Source: Streptomyces hygroscopicus (GTDB taxonomy: Bacteria; Actinomycetota; Actinomycetes; Streptomycetales; Streptomycetaceae). Taken from it: a stretch of 64,000 nt of DNA. Position 1 is the stretch's first letter. Each line of letters starts with the position of its first letter. Made by a program: the position numbers and the translations under genes. The DNA lies in contig CP018627.1 in assembly GCA_002021875.1 (NCBI GenBank), positions 2,356,001 through 2,420,000 of the forward strand, in the 5' to 3' direction. Under the pieces are notes generated by a model. The model ran no database searches. It saw only the letters and a program-made list of their open reading frames with translations, and was not told the DNA's origin. Shown in pieces: positions 22,330 to 52,949 of this stretch.

Positions 22330-22506
22330 TCACTCGTGCCGGTAACTGCCGTACGCGCGGGCAGCCTCCAGCTGCTCCAGCCAAGGAACACACACGCCCA
22401 GCAAGAAGCCTGTGGGGATGAGTCTGTTGCATCATGCTCTCCGGCAGGAGACGTTCGGGGAACTGTCACGCTTCCAGGATGAACCGCCCCGGGTTCGGTA
22501 GAGATC

Positions 22507-23445
22507 TCAGATTGTGGTGATGACCTGGGGTTTCGTGAGTTCGGTGTAGTAGTTGGCTTCGTATTCGACGGGCGGGATGTGGCCTATCTCGCCGTGGAGT
22601 CTGCGGTGGTTGTACCAGTCGGCCCACTCGGCGGTGGCCAGCTCGACCTGGGAGAGCGTCTTCCAGGGCCGCCGGGGCTTGATCAACTCGGTTTTGAACA
22701 GGCCGATCGTGGACTCCATCAGGGCGTTGTCGTACGCGTCACCGACGGATCCGATGCTCGCCGCGATGCCGGCGGCATCCAGGTGCTCGGCGAGTTTGAA
22801 CGATGTGTATTGCGACCCGGCGTCCGAGTGATGGATCAAGTCTCCTGGCCGCACGGGCTGTTGGTCGCGGTCGCGTTGCCAGATGGCCATCTCCAGGGCG
22901 TCCAGGACGAAGACGGTCTCCTTCACGGTGGCCGCGGACCAGCCGACGATCCGGCGGGAGAAGGTGTCCACGACGAACGCGACGTAGACGGTCGCGGACC
23001 AGGTCTTCACGTGGGTGAAGTCCGCCACCCAGCACCGGTTCGGAGCGATGGCCACGAAGTCGCGGTCGACCAGATCGGGGGCCCGCTGGACCTGTCCGCC
23101 GGGGATCGTGGTGATGACGCTTCTGCCGCGCACCGCGCCCTGGATGCCGAGCTCGCGCATCAGGCGCTCGACGGTGCAGCGGGCCACCGCATGTCCCTGC
23201 CGGTTCAGCTCGCGCCAGATCTTCCGGGCTCCGTAGACACGGTAGTTGGACGCGTAGACGTACTGGATCCTCTCCTTGAGCTCCGTGTCACGCATGCGGC
23301 GGGCGGAGGGCGTCTGGAGGCGTTTCTTGTGGGCGTAGTACGTGGAAGGGGCGATCTTGCAGTCGTGCCCGGTGAGCGTCCTGCAGATCGGCTCGACGCC
23401 GCCGAAGCGGTCCCGGTGCTCGTCGATGAACGTTACGAGCGCGTT
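22507..23445 (-). CDS. IS3 OrfB, integrase-core transposase
   Basis: An ATG lies at 23295, but the frame is open back to about 23445, where it overlaps orfA in the -1 frame. The usual product is therefore an OrfAB fusion made by programmed frameshifting near 23440-23450. It has an HTH_21 region ([32 protein letters not shown]) and an rve core with the DDE residues in [27 protein letters not shown] and [19 protein letters not shown]. It ends at 22507, 27 bp inside the left terminal repeat. Confidence 0.92.
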   Translation of the reverse strand, partial: NALVTFIDEHRDRFGGVEPICRTLTGHDCKIAPSTYYAHKKRLQTPSARRMRDTELKERIQYVYASNYRVYGARKIWRELNRQGHAVARCTVERLMRELGIQGAVRGRSVITTIPGGQVQRAPDLVDRDFVAIAPNRCWVADFTHVKTWSATVYVAFVVDTFSRRIVGWSAATVKETVFVLDALEMAIWQRDRDQQPVRPGDLIHHSDAGSQYTSFKLAEHLDAAGIAASIGSVGDAYDNALMESTIGLFKTELIKPRRPWKTLSQVELATAEWADWYNHRRLHGEIGHIPPVEYEANYYTELTKPQVITTI

Positions 23446-23759
23446 TGTGGCCGGTCGAGCTCGGCCGCGAAGAAACTCGCCGCGGCCTTCAGGATCTCGT
23501 TCGCCCGCTTCAGCTCGGCGTTCTCCTTCTTCAACGCCTTGAGCTGGGCGGACTCCTCCGTCGTCGTCCCCGGACGCTGCCCCGCGTCGATCTCCTGCTG
23601 CTTCACCCAGTTCCGCAGTGTCTCGCGGGAACCGATGCCGAGCTTGTCGGCGACCGCCTGCAGGGCGGTCGTCTCGTTCGGGTAATCGTCGCGCACCTCG
23701 GCGACCATGCGCACCGCACGACGGCGGAGCTCAAGCGGGTAACGGGAGGGTCGTGCCAT
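23433..23759 (-). CDS. IS3 OrfA
   Basis: 108 residues from ATG 23759. It has a helix-turn-helix (YPLELRRRAVRMVAEVRDDY, VADKLGIGSRETLRNWVKQQ) followed by a leucine-zipper-like coiled coil (LKALKKENAELKRANEILKA). It overlaps orfB, which lies in the -1 frame. OrfA alone is normally a DNA-binding regulator of transposition. Confidence 0.92.
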   Translation of the reverse strand: MARPSRYPLELRRRAVRMVAEVRDDYPNETTALQAVADKLGIGSRETLRNWVKQQEIDAGQRPGTTTEESAQLKALKKENAELKRANEILKAAASFFAAELDRPQTRS

Positions 23760-24079
23760 GACTCAATCCTTACATGGAATCGAGCCTCCACCTGACCCGG
23801 GGCGGTTCACTACGCGGACCGACCGACCACCGCTCCGGAGTAATCTCCGGCTAGAAAGTTTTGCCAGAGCCGCTTGCTGGAGTGCACCGACGAGAAGCCC
23901 TTCGCGTGTCCTGCACGTCTGCATGGGGACTTGCAAGGTATGCGGAACGGTCCACAACCGCGGTGAGCATGCGGGCAAGAAGCCTCGGAGGGTGAAACAG
24001 AAAGTCACCGAGACAGCCATATGGCCATGGCAGGAATTCCCGGCTGCCCTTGGGTGAGGAGCATGCCGGACGTCGTGCT

Positions 24080-40011: not shown

Positions 40012-42501
40012 ACATGGACAAGGCCAGGACCTGGGGAATTACGTGATGCCGGGGCCGGGGAATTACGTGATCGTTCACAACGACCGGCCGCATCCAGCGC
40101 AACCCCTTGCGGGAGCAGGCACCGGCGGACCGGGTGAACACCAAAATCATCCAGCCTGCGCCGCCGGAGGAGCCCGCTGATCCGCCGAGGCCAGCGGGCG
40201 ACCTCTCCCGCGCCCCGATAAACAAGGTGGCCGCGGCCGCCATGGACGCCTGGGCCGATGAGAACCCCGAGCGGCGCCGGCTGCGCCACCTCAGTACGGC
40301 GACGATCCTCGAACACCTGGAGCAGTTCCCGGGCAAGACCTGGCAGCAGCGCTGGGTGGAGGCCGGGCTGGACGAGTACGGCACGAATCCCGGCGACCTG
40401 GGCGGCGAGGACAAGAAGCTGCGGAAGCTGTTCATCTCGGGCACCCGCCAGCTGTTCTGCCTGCGAGTGATCCGTCCGAGCATGGACGCCTTCCGAGGGC
40501 ACACCTACCCGAACTACGCCCTCGACTTCCGCCTGGTGGCCAAGGACCCTCTGCTGGACAAGTTCCACGCCGCGGTTGAAGCCTCCGACGCGACCCCGGC
40601 GGCCCGGCGCACGGCGCTGTTCGACGTCGCCTGCGCCCTGACCGTGTTCGGGATCTCCCTGGCCGACCTGACGCCGGAGGTGCTGCTGCACTACTCGCTG
40701 GAGTCGCGACGCAAGCAGCTCACCCGCGGGGCCACCAACCGCGGCCAGGAGTACAACTACGCGGCCATCGCGGCCTGGCACATCCTCTACGAGTCGGGGC
40801 ACTTCCCGCCTTCGGCTCCGCACGTGCTGCGGGCCGCCCTCGTCGGCGGGCAGAAGAGCGTCGAGGAGCTCGTCGACCGGCAGCAGCTGCGCAACACCAA
40901 CGTGCGCAACCTGCTGGTGGACTACCTTCGCCGCCGCGCCGCCGACCTGGACCACTCCTCGCTGCGGCAGCTGGCCCGAATCCTGCCCGGCACCTTCTGG
41001 AGCAACGTCGAGAAGGTCAACCCCGACCAGACCGACCTGCGGCTGAGCGAAGAGACCTACCAGCAGTGGAAGGAGACCATCTCCGTCCTGCCCGGTGGCC
41101 GGCCTCGGCTCGACATGGACGGCGTGCTGCTCAAGGTCCGCACCTTCTACCTGGACTTGCAGAGCTGGGCGGTCGCCGAACCCGAGCGCTGGGCGGCGTG
41201 GTCGGTGCCCTGCCCCGTCCGTGATGCCGAACTGCGCTGGTTCAACGTCCGCCGCCGCGAGATCCACGCCCGGATGGCCGAACGCACCCGCGTCCGCCAG
41301 CCCCTGCTGCCGCTGCTGATCGACCACGTCACCAATCGGTGGATACGGCTGCGCGAGATCCTCACCGCCGCCCAGACCGTCGAACCCGGTGAGCGGTTCA
41401 CCGCCGCCGGCGCACAGTGGCAGCGCACCGCCAGCGAGTACGACCTCAAGCGGGCCAAGACGGAGAAGTCCTTCCCCGTCCGGGCGGTCAACCGGGACAC
41501 CGGCGAGCTGGTCGCCGTCACCCGGGACGAGACCGCGGCCTTCTGGGACTGGGCCGTCATCGAAGTGCTCCGGCATGCCGGCCTGCGGATCGAGGAGCTG
41601 ACCGAGCTGACCCACCTGAGCGTCCGCAACTACCAGTGCCCCAACGGCGAGGTCGTCGCACTCCTGGTCGTCACCCCCTCCAAGACGGACCGCGAGCGGG
41701 TGATCCCGATGTCCGCCGAGCTGTTCCACGTCATCGCTCAAGTCATCCGTCGGCACCGCGGCACCCACGGCGCGGTGCCGATCGCGACCCGCTACGACGT
41801 CCACGAGAAGGTGTGGTGCCCGCCCCTGCCCTACCTGTTCCAGACCCAGACCGGCCTGGAACGACAGGCGATGAGCAACACCACGATCTGGCGGCGCCTG
41901 CGCAAGTGCTGCACTGAGCTGGCCAAGACCCACCCAGAGTTAGCCGGGACGGCGTTCTCCGCCCACGACTTCCGCAGGATCTTCGCCACCGACCTGGTCA
42001 ACTCCGGGCTGCCCATCCACATCGGTGCCGCGCTGCTCGGCCACTTGAACATTCAGACCACTCGTGGGTACGTCGCGGTCTTCGACGACGACATCGTGCG
42101 CCACTACCAGCAGTTCCTCGACCAGCGCCGACAGCTGCGGCCCGAGGAGGAGTACCGGGACCCCACATCCGAGGAGTGGTCGGAGTTCCAGGAGCACTTC
42201 GACAAGCGGAAGGTCGAGCTGGGTTTCTGCGGACGCCCGTATGTAACGCCGTGCGCGCATGAGCACGCTTGCATCAGATGTCCGATGCTCTCGGTCAACC
42301 CGACGATGCTGCCCCGGCTGGACGAACTGGAGGACGACCTGGTCGCCCGCCGCCAGCACGCAATCGCCCAGGGCTGGAAGGGCGAGGTCGAAGGCATCGA
42401 GCTGACCCTGACCTTCCTGCGCTCCAAGCGGGCCCAGGTTCACCGGTCGCAGCAGCTGCCCCCGGTGAACCTGGGCATCCCCTCTGTCCCTCACAGCCGC
42501 C

Positions 42502-42670
42502 TCACACCAGAGTGATCAGCAGAGCGGACACCAGCAGGGCGGTCTGGTGCAGGGCCTGATCGGTCAGATACATGCCGTTCATCCCGGCCGTCTTCAGCTC
42601 CGCGAAGCCCTTCGATCCGACGTGCTCCAGAAGTGTCGGCAGGTTCGGATATTTGGTCGTGAGGAATAGG
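42502..42670 (-). pseudogene. Unidentified C-terminal coding remnant
   Basis: Reading left, a protein-like frame gives LFLTTKYPNLPTLLEHVGSK, GFAELKTAGMNGMYLTDQAL and HQTALLVSALLITLV-stop, overlapping the end of the recombinase gene by 14 bp. No start codon with a ribosome site is visible and I do not recognise the family. It may be the tail of a gene displaced by the recombinase module. Confidence 0.3.
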
Positions 42671-48566: not shown

Positions 48567-49428
48567 CACCGTGTCCTACATGGTGAGTTGGTTGTTGGTC
48601 GAGTATGGGGAGTGGACGGTGGGGATGGATCGTGCCGGTGGGGCTGTGGGAGATCGCCAGGCCGTTGCTGCCGTCGGCGCGAGTGCGGCCGCAAGGCGGC
48701 GGGGTGGCCAACATCGATGACGAGGCGGTGTTCGCGGCCATCGTCTACGTGCTGGTCAGCGGCTGTGCGTGGCGGGCTCTGCCGCCCTGTTTCGGTGCCT
48801 CGAAGTCGACGGTGCACCGCCGGTTTCTGATCTGGTCGCGGGCGGGAGTCTGGGGACGGCTGCACCAGAAGGTGCTCGAGATGCTCACCGGCCAGGGCCT
48901 GGTCGACCTGTCCCGGGCGGTACTCGACTCCGCTCACGTCCGCGCCAAAAAGGGGGCGAACACACAGGTCCGTCGCCCGTGGACCGGGGCAAACCGGGTT
49001 CCAGGATGCACGTCCTGTCGGACGCGAACGGACTGCCCCTACGCGTCGGAGTCTCCGCGGCCAACACCCACGACAGTCTCGGGCTGAAGCCGATGGTGGC
49101 GCATTTCCACGTAGGACACGAATCCCACAGCGACCATTCCAAGCTCCAACGGCTGCACGCCGACAAGGCTTACGATCTTCCTGACCTGCGACAATGGCTG
49201 CACAGCCGACACATCGGCGTCCGTATCGCCCGCAAAGGAATCGACTCAAGCGAGCGACTGGGCCGCCGAAGGTGGGTGATCGAGCGCACGATCTCCTGGC
49301 TCACCGGCTACCGTCGGCTGTCACCCCGTTACGAGCGTCACCCACGCAACTACCTTGCCTTCCTCGGCCTCGCCGCCGCCCTCTGCTGCTACAAATGCCT
49401 CCTCAAACTGACCATGTAGGACACGGTG
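48567..49428 (+). mobile_element. IS5-family element inserted at the oxidoreductase stop codon
   Basis: 862 bp. The ends are perfect inverted repeats of 18 bp, CACCGTGTCCTACATGGT at 48567-48584 and its complement at 49411-49428. The target duplication is TAA (48564-48566 and 49429-49431), which is also the stop codon of the preceding gene. It carries one transposase in two overlapping frames, as in the IS427-type subgroup. It looks recent and potentially active. Confidence 0.9.
48605..49419 (+). CDS. IS5-family transposase, two frames with probable programmed -1 frameshift
   Basis: Frame 1 (48605 onward) reads GLWEIARPLLPSARVRPQGG, YVLVSGCAWRALPPCFGASK, STVHRRFLIWSRAGVWGRLH and LDSAHVRAKKGA. 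At the A5G5 run 48947-48956 the -1 frame takes over: GGEHTGPSPVDRGKPGSRMH, VLSDANGLPLRVGVSAANTH, LHADKAYDLPDL, RRWVIERTISWLTGYRRLSP and AALCCYKCLLKLTM. All catalytic parts are present, and the slippery run sits where IS427-type elements shift frame, so I treat it as functional rather than broken. Confidence 0.85.
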
Positions 49429-49588
49429 TAAGAGGACCCCGTTAGGTTCGTCTTGATCTTGGAGTCGAGCAATGCTCAATACCTGTGGATCACTCCTGAC
49501 GGAAGGAGACGTACCTTCCCGATGGATCGATGATCGATAGGTCATCGAGCAAGGCCGACGTTGCAGGGTCGGCCGGGAAGGCACGCCC

Positions 49589-50833
49589 GTGCTTACGGTA
49601 GTCAACGAGGATGGCACCACGCCAAGCGGCAGCTCGCTGCTGGATGGCATCGTTCGGGAAGGCGCGAGACGGATGCTCACCGCCGCACTGGAGGCCGAGG
49701 TCAACGCCTACGTAGCTGAGTTGGCCGACGAGCGCGACGGCAGGGGGCACAGTCTGGTGGTGGGCAACAACGACTATCACCAGCCTCGGCAGGTCGCCAC
49801 CGGGGCCGGCGTGGTCGAGGTGAAGGCACCGCGGGTGAACGACAAGCGCGTCGACAAGGCCACGAGTGAGCGCAAGCGATTCTCGTCGGCGATTCTGTTG
49901 CCGTGGTGCCGCAAGTCGCCGAAGATCAGCGAGGTGCTGCCGCCGCTGCTCTACCTGCACAGTCTGTCCTCTGGCGACTTCGTGCCCGCTCTGGAGCAGT
50001 TCCCCGGTTCGTCCGCTGGGCTCTCGGCTGCGACGGTCACCCGGCTGACAACGCAGCGGCAGGCCGACCATGCCGCTTTCATGGACCGCGACCTCACGGA
50101 GGTCGACTACGGGTACATGTGGGCCGACGGCATCCACCTCAACGTCCGCCTGGAGGAGGCCAAGACGTGCGTCCTGGTACTCATCGGAGTCCGGCCCGAC
50201 GGCTCCAATGAGCTGGTCGCGCTCAAGGACGGCTACCTCGAGTCGGGGGAGTCGTGGGCTGACCTGCTGCGGGACTGCGCCCGCCGGGGCATGCGAGCCC
50301 CGGTGTTCGCGGTCGGGGACGGCGCCCTGGGCTTGTGGAAGGCTCTGGCGGAGGTGTTTCCCGAAACCAGCGAGCAAAGGTGCTGGGTTCACAAAACGGC
50401 CAATGTTCTGGACGCCATGCCGAAGTCCGCACAGCCCGGCGCGAAGAAGGCCATCCCGGACATCTGCAACGCCGAGGCGGCGATCACAACGTTCGCCCAG
50501 CTCTACGGTGCGAAGTTCCCCAAGGTGGTTAAGAAGATCACCGATGACCAGGACCAGCTGCTGGCGTTCTGCGACTTCCCGGCCGAGCACTGGATCCACC
50601 TACGCACCACGAACCCTATCGAGTCGACCTTCTCCACCGTCCGGCTGCGGACCAAGGTCACCCGCGGCGCCGGCTCCCGCACCGCCGCCCTGGCCATGCT
50701 CTTCAAGCTCGTCGAGTCCGCCCAGCAGCGATGGCGGGCCGTGAACGCGCCCCACCTCGGCGCCCTCGTCCGTGCCGGAGCCCGCTTCGAACGCGGCCGG
50801 CTCGTCGAACGCCCCGAGGCGATCGCGGCGTGA
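49589..50833 (+). CDS. IS256 (mutator) family transposase
   Basis: 414 residues from GTG 49589. Conserved blocks are LLDGIVREGARRMLTAALEA, EVNAYVAELADERDGRGHSL, VEVKAPRVNDKRVD, LYLHSLSSGDFVPALEQFPG, YGYMWADGIHLNVRLEEAKT (first Asp), DGYLESGESWADLLRDCARR, PVFAVGDGALGLWKALAEVF (second Asp), QRCWVHKTANVLDAMPKSAQ and HLRTTNPIESTFSTVRLRTK (Glu). It is complete. Its TGA overlaps the GTG of the GNAT gene (GTGA), so the passenger is translated through coupling. Confidence 0.95.
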   Translation: MLTVVNEDGTTPSGSSLLDGIVREGARRMLTAALEAEVNAYVAELADERDGRGHSLVVGNNDYHQPRQVATGAGVVEVKAPRVNDKRVDKATSERKRFSSAILLPWCRKSPKISEVLPPLLYLHSLSSGDFVPALEQFPGSSAGLSAATVTRLTTQRQADHAAFMDRDLTEVDYGYMWADGIHLNVRLEEAKTCVLVLIGVRPDGSNELVALKDGYLESGESWADLLRDCARRGMRAPVFAVGDGALGLWKALAEVFPETSEQRCWVHKTANVLDAMPKSAQPGAKKAIPDICNAEAAITTFAQLYGAKFPKVVKKITDDQDQLLAFCDFPAEHWIHLRTTNPIESTFSTVRLRTKVTRGAGSRTAALAMLFKLVESAQQRWRAVNAPHLGALVRAGARFERGRLVERPEAIAA

Positions 50834-51348
50834 ACACCCTCGTGACGCGCGCCATCAGCACCTGGCGGCTGGACCTGCTGCCGCTGCACGTCGAGCACGC
50901 CGAGGAGATGGCCGCCGTACTGTCCGACCCGGCCTTGCGCACCTTTATCGGCGGCACTCCGGAGACCCCGCAAGCCCTGCGCTCGCGCTACCAGCGCATG
51001 ACCGCAGGCTCTCCCGATCCGGCCCTCTCCTGGCTGAACTGGGTGATCCGGCTCCGTGGTGAGTTCTGCCTAACAGGCACCGTCCAGGCGACAGTCAGCC
51101 CCTCCGGTCACGGCCCTATCGCCGAGATCGCCTGGGTGGTGGGAACCCCGTGGCAGGGAAGAGGCATCGCCAGCGAAGCAGCCCGAGGGCTCGTCGACTG
51201 GCTCAGCCAGCAGCCGGTGCACACCGTCATCGCCCACATCCACCCCGAACATCAGGCATCCGTCGCCGTCGCCACCGCCGCCGGGCTCACACCCACCGAC
51301 GAATGGCACGACGGCGAGATCCGATGGCACCGGAGCATCAGACGATAA
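50830..51348 (+). CDS. GNAT N-acetyltransferase, transposon passenger
   Basis: 172 residues from GTG 50830, sharing GTGA with the transposase stop. Acetyltransferase_3-type pattern: ISTWRLDLLPLHVEHAEEMA, AVLSDPALRTFIGGTPETPQ, WVIRLRGEFCLTGTVQATVS, IAEIAWVVGTPWQGRGIASE (acetyl-CoA loop QGRGIA) and HIHPEHQASVAVATAAGLTP. It resembles RimJ/RimL-like and small-molecule GNATs; the acceptor (antibiotic, protein N-terminus or metabolite) is not readable. It lies wholly inside the terminal repeats, 7 bp before the right end. Confidence 0.9.
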   Translation: MNTLVTRAISTWRLDLLPLHVEHAEEMAAVLSDPALRTFIGGTPETPQALRSRYQRMTAGSPDPALSWLNWVIRLRGEFCLTGTVQATVSPSGHGPIAEIAWVVGTPWQGRGIASEAARGLVDWLSQQPVHTVIAHIHPEHQASVAVATAAGLTPTDEWHDGEIRWHRSIRR

Positions 51349-51389
51349 CTTCGCCGATCCGCAGATCTTGACTATTACTCCTTGGTGTC

Positions 51390-51619: not shown

Positions 51620-51646
51620 TGAACCGCCCCGGGTTCGGTAGAGATC

Positions 51647-52585
51647 TCAGATTGTGGTGATGACCTGGGGTTTCGTGAGTTCGGTGTAGTAGTTGGCTTC
51701 GTATTCGACGGGCGGGATGTGGCCTATCTCGCCGTGGAGTCTGCGGTGGTTGTACCAGTCGGCCCACTCGGCGGTGGCCAGCTCGACCTGGGAGAGCGTC
51801 TTCCAGGGCCGCCGGGGCTTGATCAACTCGGTTTTGAACAGGCCGATCGTGGACTCCATCAGGGCGTTGTCGTACGCGTCACCGACGGATCCGATGCTCG
51901 CCGCGATGCCGGCGGCATCCAGGTGCTCGGCGAGTTTGAACGATGTGTATTGCGACCCGGCGTCCGAGTGATGGATCAAGTCTCCTGGCCGCACGGGCTG
52001 TTGGTCGCGGTCGCGTTGCCAGATGGCCATCTCCAGGGCGTCCAGGACGAAGACGGTCTCCTTCACGGTGGCCGCGGACCAGCCGACGATCCGGCGGGAG
52101 AAGGTGTCCACGACGAACGCGACGTAGACGGTCGCGGACCAGGTCTTCACGTGGGTGAAGTCCGCCACCCAGCACCGGTTCGGAGCGATGGCCACGAAGT
52201 CGCGGTCGACCAGATCGGGGGCCCGCTGGACCTGTCCGCCGGGGATCGTGGTGATGACGCTTCTGCCGCGCACCGCGCCCTGGATGCCGAGCTCGCGCAT
52301 CAGGCGCTCGACGGTGCAGCGGGCCACCGCATGTCCCTGCCGGTTCAGCTCGCGCCAGATCTTCCGGGCTCCGTAGACACGGTAGTTGGACGCGTAGACG
52401 TACTGGATCCTCTCCTTGAGCTCCGTGTCACGCATGCGGCGGGCGGAGGGCGTCTGGAGGCGTTTCTTGTGGGCGTAGTACGTGGAAGGGGCGATCTTGC
52501 AGTCGTGCCCGGTGAGCGTCCTGCAGATCGGCTCGACGCCGCCGAAGCGGTCCCGGTGCTCGTCGATGAACGTTACGAGCGCGTT
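51647..52585 (-). CDS. IS3 OrfB, integrase-core transposase (copy 2)
   Basis: Identical in protein sequence to the OrfB at 22507-23445, including the DDE motifs ([41 protein letters not shown]). The ATG at 52435 is internal; the functional product is the frameshifted OrfAB fusion. No lesion separates the two copies, so they duplicated recently or are kept alike by gene conversion. Confidence 0.92.
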
Positions 52586-52899
52586 TGTGGCCGGTCGAGC
52601 TCGGCCGCGAAGAAACTCGCCGCGGCCTTCAGGATCTCGTTCGCCCGCTTCAGCTCGGCGTTCTCCTTCTTCAACGCCTTGAGCTGGGCGGACTCCTCCG
52701 TCGTCGTCCCCGGACGCTGCCCCGCGTCGATCTCCTGCTGCTTCACCCAGTTCCGCAGTGTCTCGCGGGAACCGATGCCGAGCTTGTCGGCGACCGCCTG
52801 CAGGGCGGTCGTCTCGTTCGGGTAATCGTCGCGCACCTCGGCGACCATGCGCACCGCACGACGGCGGAGCTCAAGCGGGTAACGGGAGGGTCGTGCCAT
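52573..52899 (-). CDS. IS3 OrfA (copy 2)
   Basis: 108 residues from ATG 52899, identical to the OrfA at 23433-23759: helix-turn-helix (VADKLGIGSRETLRNWVKQQ) and coiled coil (LKALKKENAELKRANEILKA). It overlaps orfB in the -1 frame. Confidence 0.92.
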   Translation of the reverse strand: MARPSRYPLELRRRAVRMVAEVRDDYPNETTALQAVADKLGIGSRETLRNWVKQQEIDAGQRPGTTTEESAQLKALKKENAELKRANEILKAAASFFAAELDRPQTRS

Positions 52900-52949
52900 G
52901 ACTCAATCCTTACATGGAATCGAGCCTCCACCTGACCCGGGGCGGTTCA

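Follow-up and report, generated by a model that had tools for sequence, protein, structure and literature searches.

Transporter insertion sequences (tIS) are elements with IS-like ends, a transposase and a gene that is dispensable for transposition, according to the available text of two reports (PMC3129680 and PMC7986276). The available part of the latter gives a single passenger-bearing member for the IS6 family. The IS256 family transposes via a circular intermediate, and the 109 delimited IS256-family elements surveyed have a plain IS organization, as described in the accessible part of PMC3942029. Passengers in IS256 elements are not mentioned in the accessible parts of PMC7371123 and PMC11092175. 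A search of the open-access literature by titles and the first lines of abstracts found no recognizable cargo-bearing IS256 element of Streptomyces. Since ISfinder and most of the subscription literature lie outside the scope of that search, our claim of novelty is limited: the transporter IS concept is known, and the new part is an IS256 variant with an exchangeable cargo slot.

The element described here lies in a 64,000-nucleotide stretch of the Streptomyces hygroscopicus genome (the window), which covers positions 2356001-2420000 of a 12.0-Mb single contig. The element occupies 49467-51380 of the window. Its 25-bp terminal inverted repeats, at 49467-49491 (plus strand) and 51356-51380 (minus strand), pair at 19 of 25 positions; the same left end occurs in relatives, and the right end matches the consensus at no fewer than 18 of 25 positions. 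When the reverse complement of the right end was compared with the whole 64-kb window, 16 or more matches were found only at 49467. The flanking sequences CTTGGAGTC (49458-49466) and CTTGGTGTC (51381-51389) agree at 8 of 9 positions, a level that none of 3,080 mismatched left and right flank pairs of relatives reached. Between the ends are a gene for a 414-aa transposase with a GTG start (49589-50833, plus strand) and a gene for a 172-aa GNAT-family N-acetyltransferase (plus strand), which runs from the GTG at 50830 to the TAA at 51348. The GNAT start codon overlaps the transposase stop in a 4-nt GTGA (50830-50833), and the right end follows the GNAT stop after a gap of 7 bp. An earlier sequence-only reading had described an IS256-family unit with 25-bp ends, a 9-bp target duplication, a shared GTGA and a 7-bp gap, and each of these was borne out when the positions were read again. 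The element has the transposase family, the inverted ends and the 8- to 9-bp duplications of the IS256 family (prokaryotic Mutator, p-MULT 1), and it resembles transporter IS, as the available text describes them, in its ends, its transposase and a passenger not needed for transposition. It is very likely an IS256-derived transporter IS, a single unit composed of left end, transposase, one passenger at the transposase stop and right end, with an exchangeable cargo slot.

The window transposase scored 167.9 bits against Pfam PF00872 (cut-off 21) and 224.2 bits against NCBIfam NF033543 (cut-off 150), which places it in the IS256 family. The motifs that we take to carry the DDE residues are present. 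The reading frame is still open, and this copy of the element is probably old because its transposase, compared with 25 relatives, differs at 20 columns that are invariant or nearly so, with small indels among the differences.

The passenger belongs to the GNAT family both by profile (PF13302, Acetyltransf_3, 82.2 bits; also PF00583) and by fold, its predicted structure (pLDDT 90.8) giving GNAT fold matches. The top fold neighbors of the predicted model, bleomycin acetyltransferase, RimJ/RimL and MccE, are tied, with Z scores within 1 of one another, and do not point to one substrate. With 14 to 21% identity to bleomycin N-acetyltransferase (2zw4), RimJ/RimL, MccE and AAC(6'), the window GNAT differs from all of these and resembles them in fold only. 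Two other candidate roles were rejected. A GNAT toxin with an adjacent antitoxin has no room at this locus, given the GTGA overlap with the transposase on one side of the GNAT and the 7 bp to the right end on the other; an anti-phage defense gene was discarded after no PADLOC model matched at an E value of 0.01.

Relatives were then collected by similarity to the window element, and they split into different cargo past the C-terminal coding end of the transposase. A right end, called at 18 or more of 25 matches to the consensus within 2.6 kb, was recognizable in 70 of the 80 loci scanned, the window locus included, and the second-best match in the stretches scanned was mostly 12 to 15. Of the ten loci without a called right end, L020 lacks the transposase C terminus and nine have no match of at least 18 of 25 within 2.6 kb. 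Cargo was present in 65 of the 70 elements with a right end and absent from five; copies that at first appeared to end at the transposase contain other genes followed by a distant right end. The cargo of the 65 elements forms 31 sequence clusters by blastn, which may still split distant homologues (three RibD-like and two mycothiol-isomerase-like clusters); a tblastx grouping into 24 clusters merged unrelated cargos and was set aside. The GNAT family of the window was carried by 12 of the 70 elements, some relatives having been chosen for this same family. The GNAT is one passenger among many, and elements of this Streptomyces subgroup have an exchangeable cargo slot that extends from the transposase stop to the right end. 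The sequence-only reading had called a passenger unusual, which does not hold for a subgroup with passengers in 65 of 70 such elements. Passenger genes are generally regarded as exceptional in simple insertion sequences, whereas here a compact type common in Streptomyces carries cargo in most sampled copies. The subgroup differs in this from the plain IS256 elements surveyed in the accessible part of PMC3942029. It also differs from described transporter IS in that most sampled members of one IS256 subgroup have a passenger, with 31 clusters, one fixed slot and a repeated NTGA overlap.

The Pfam scan covered one representative for each of 29 clusters and the second ORF of one; GNAT172 was scanned separately, and L254 stood outside the scan. 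The cargo names obtained were VOC, double GNAT, HAD_SAK_2, PALP, AAA_33, RibD_C (three clusters), alpha/beta hydrolase, DUF5959, two more GNAT types, methyltransferase, HEAT, SDR, SnoaL-like and mycothiol-isomerase-like (two clusters). Matches below the cut-off named a second methyltransferase, a bPH-like and an MTHFR-like cargo, and 8 of the 29 scanned representatives had no Pfam match at an E value of 0.01. Several of the cargo enzymes are of a modification or detoxification type. RibD_C (dihydrofolate-reductase-like) proteins occur in three separate clusters (L026, L237, L217, L233 and L255), one of these genes being adjoined by an ArsR-type gene, and GNATs are spread over four. L221 looks like a HAD element that contains foreign DNA. 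When cargo starts were taken as mechanical ORF starts, the representative ORF began in an NTGA overlap with the transposase stop in 9 of the 31 clusters, and in some other clusters the best ORF was on the opposite strand. The NTGA coupling is therefore not the rule across clusters.

Four elements bear on how the slot is filled. L002, L025, L226 and L242 have, in addition to the distal end, a degenerate proximal right end with 14 to 19 of 25 matches at the canonical place, 12 to 15 nt past the transposase stop; as background, 14 or more matches were found at any position in 2.5% of 1,300 windows. The arrangement suggests capture through a downstream right end. This route is unproven because most elements scanned have no proximal right-end remnant and three others (L016, L241 and L253) have right-end matches of 14 to 16 at non-canonical places. 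In such a capture, the transposase would pair the left end with a right-end sequence beyond a neighboring gene. The old proximal right end would subsequently decay or be deleted, and streamlining would leave the cargo start inside the transposase stop as NTGA. Where the NTGA overlap exists, the cargo could be translated at a low level along with the transposase and would not need its own promoter. The GNAT may acetylate a small molecule, a peptide or a protein N terminus to the benefit of the host, and hosts may for that benefit retain it once the element is dead. We give even chances to the full proposal that this Streptomyces IS256 lineage is a one-ended gene-capture transposon, which skips its own right end in favor of a second one beyond a host gene and loses the old end, couples translation through NTGA, has had its slot refilled dozens of times, and has seeded across the genus single-gene cargos that are kept after transposase death.

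On the other hand, cargo may be swapped mostly by homologous recombination between elements, through their common transposase 3' end and right end, rather than by new capture. Recombination is a serious rival to capture because the same cargo is found on separate transposase backbones: on a quick tree, in which the truncated rows L013, L016 and L017 form long branches, 25 changes are required for the 14 cargo labels represented by at least two rows, the minimum being 13 and the shuffled mean 37.2. The other tree of the analysis was likewise a quick tree. However, recombination explains neither the origin of 31 different clusters nor the fact that in L002, L025, L226 and L242 a remnant right end separates transposase and cargo, and we consider it possible but somewhat doubtful as the main route. 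With gene capture as the preferred reading, the passage from IS to transposon becomes directly testable, since cargo-free copies, copies with cargo and a remnant right end, and copies with streamlined cargo all exist.

The sequence-only reading had proposed looking for the same junction and ends in other genomes, and they were found in several Streptomyces units. A DNA search with the window element, in which two candidates were scored per genome, gave matches in 252 of 295 same-genus genomes, many of the listed matches covering the transposase part only. Among the matches listed, full-length ones beyond the window's own were found in G294 and G234, with near-complete or broken ones in several others. 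A scan led by the GNAT yielded 80 named loci, the best of 288, and the named relatives listed were mostly Streptomyces. Transposase-GNAT units with both ends were found in S. noursei (two copies), S. reniochalinae, S. rugosispiralis, S. canus, IBSBF 2953 and Streptomyces sp. NBC_01549, the transposase frame of the last being broken. Two of the GNAT elements have perfect 9-bp duplications (GGGCACACC in L087 and GTGCGGATC in L091), L011, L012 and the window copy have 8 of 9, and none was found in L084, L085, L086 and L088. The two S. noursei elements are 99.4% identical over 1923 bp and have unrelated left flanks. When the flanks of L087 were rejoined, they formed one ORF, and the rejoined sequence was matched in 22 of 199 same-genus genomes. 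In all six relatives fetched, the genome of the window included, the L087 site was unbroken (55 to 59% protein identity), so the empty-site comparison proposed from the sequence came out in favor of insertion. The GNAT moves with the IS256-family element.

One degraded form, L038/L095, retains both ends and an intact GNAT, together with 98 of 414 transposase residues and flanks duplicated at 8 of 9 positions. It is in part like a mobile insertion cassette, in which IS ends surround cargo without a transposase, whereas the window copy has an open transposase and is not of that kind. By their sequences, L038/L095 look like decay products of a complete element.

The 133 distinct GNAT loci comprise 10 complete units, a class that includes L050 (GNAT split) and L169 (367 of 414 transposase residues), 26 clear IS remnants, 23 loci with only a remnant of the transposase 3' junction and 74 with no IS trace. 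Among the 59 IS-linked loci, no two-sided synteny was detected within 3.5 kb per side, or less at contig ends. Among the 74 loci without IS trace, 22 have two-sided synteny, and 14 of these form one native group (among L194-L208 and L072-L075), in which the GNAT gene is flanked in 14 of 14 cases by an oligoribonuclease-like gene on one side and a LacI-type regulator on the other, as named from their sequences. The sequence-only reading had held that a native GNAT locus with the window's flanks would speak against the transposon. A native locus does exist, with 14 syntenic copies, but its GNATs are only 60 to 69% identical and the window's flanks are absent. A GNAT that is merely the native neighbor of a plain IS was rejected on the lack of two-sided synteny in all 59 IS-linked loci, the outer duplications, the empty site and the duplicate copies in one genome. 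IS-linked GNAT copies are scattered over different sites and often outlive the transposase.

Decay was followed in 33 loci drawn for a matching GNAT, a choice that favors intact GNATs and includes the duplicate pair L044/L045. In these loci the transposase was complete in 4 and the GNAT clearly disrupted in 4 (L037, L050, L059 and L069); three loci (L051, L056 and L063) have no start codon at the aligned place. The median dN/dS of the GNAT to the nearest complete unit was 0.255 for complete units, 0.309 for remnants and 0.297 for junction-only loci; native pairs gave 0.299 and IS-linked degraded copies compared pairwise gave 0.376. Degraded and solo copies, like the native genes, have a dN/dS near 0.3, which indicates that the GNAT is kept under selection after the death of the element. 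These values, from 0.297 to 0.376 and close to the native 0.299, argue against the idea that cargo is neutral baggage and that GNAT copies persist through recency alone, which we consider unlikely even though 8 of the 29 scanned cargo clusters have no Pfam match.

The GNAT might instead serve the element; transposition could, for instance, be regulated through acetylation of the transposase or of a host factor. The GNAT starts in GTGA in all eight complete units counted, which would fit such a role. However, loci that have lost the transposase still have an open GNAT frame under purifying selection, there is a native chromosomal family with no trace of an IS, and unrelated cargo fills the same slot in other elements, all of which make a service to the element very improbable. 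The degraded copies also bear on the claim of the sequence-only reading that GNAT translation depends on the transposase: with many copies lacking a transposase, and with ATGA at the start in 10 of 45 degraded copies, it need not.

Element-type and native-type GNATs were found together in 2 of 32 genomes, and the native type in 138 of the other 360, among 392 same-genus genomes (naive Fisher p = 1.5e-4, kinship ignored). The 32 element-type genomes were hand-picked among the matches listed at about 74% identity or more, with partial matches of at least 84% included; the scoring covered nine candidates in each genome, and counting a truncated copy in G011 would give 3 of 33. We regard the apparent rarity of co-occurrence as a lead and not as a result.

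Target duplications were further compared in the 56 elements with both ends and flanks. Twenty are perfect and five match at 8 of 9; 24 of these 25 carry cargo, of 15 classes, and the remaining one (L235) is empty. The other 31 have no duplication of at least 8 of 9, and part of the cargo list therefore rests on the right-end match. In G067, two copies with another cargo are 99.95% identical and have unrelated left flanks. The HAD element L225 has a perfect duplication and lies inside an ORF whose unbroken homologue is at 40107-42515 of the window; this open 802-aa ORF reads from its sequence as a tyrosine recombinase. L251 and L252 have common flanks on both sides and probably represent a single insertion. 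In at least 15 cargo classes, the cargo is inside the transposed unit, as in a transporter IS: outer duplications, an empty site and near-identical copies in unrelated left flanks were all observed. The alternative of a plain IS256 with host DNA next to it as the supposed cargo, with distal right ends that are chance matches or remnants of other insertion sequences and a transposase that alone moves, is scarcely credible: the 31 of 56 two-ended elements without a duplication, the five transposase-only copies and the plain copies outside the genus (UncleRicky, L266, L267 and L268) would be in line with it, but the 24 cargo elements with duplications beyond the distal right end (against 0 of 3,080 mismatched pairs), the near-identical cargo copies in unrelated left flanks of one genome and the unbroken site of a GNAT copy in relatives contradict it, and at least 15 cargo classes already refute it. 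Through the transporter IS of this subgroup, single enzymes could spread among Streptomyces genomes by a simple route that needs no integron, composite transposon or plasmid.

The window's genome contains a second element (L002/L006). We rejected its reading as a plain transposase-only IS (G000:C1:3766189-3767550) when a right end with 22 of 25 matches was found about 1 kb further on. Its cargo is a PALP-fold (threonine-dehydratase-like) enzyme, the ORF ending beside the right end; the proximal right-end remnant has 15 of 25 matches, and the flanks agree at 4 of 9, that is, without a target duplication. Copies that end right after the transposase had been named in the sequence-only reading as evidence against the transposon. 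Five of the 70 elements are of this kind, but they have the look of a plain ancestral form, and the transposon reading stands.

Outside the genus, close relatives (E value of 1e-140 or better) were found in 4 genomes of a class-wide sample of 246, same-genus genomes included. Three of these (L266, L267 and L268) and the element of mycobacteriophage UncleRicky (L262) are transposase-only by appearance, and the plain form is probably ancestral. The UncleRicky element is flanked by a perfect 9-bp duplication (CCGCCGGAG), a sign that it may have entered the phage genome recently; in the relative from phage Eradicator, no clear right end was seen. In L270, located in a genome of another family, the transposase match is broken past residue 347, and a right end with 21 of 25 matches follows about 950 bp on, with a perfect duplication (TTCAACGGA).

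The surroundings of the GNAT element look like an IS-rich region. To its left, at 48605-49419, there is an apparent further transposase in two frames. Directly to its right, at 51620-52949, lies one of two 100% identical 1330-bp copies of IS3 type by appearance, the other being at about 22480-23809. On the minus strand, 53429-53616 matches the 5' region of the same IS256 element at 72% identity and is a decayed relative in the immediate neighborhood.
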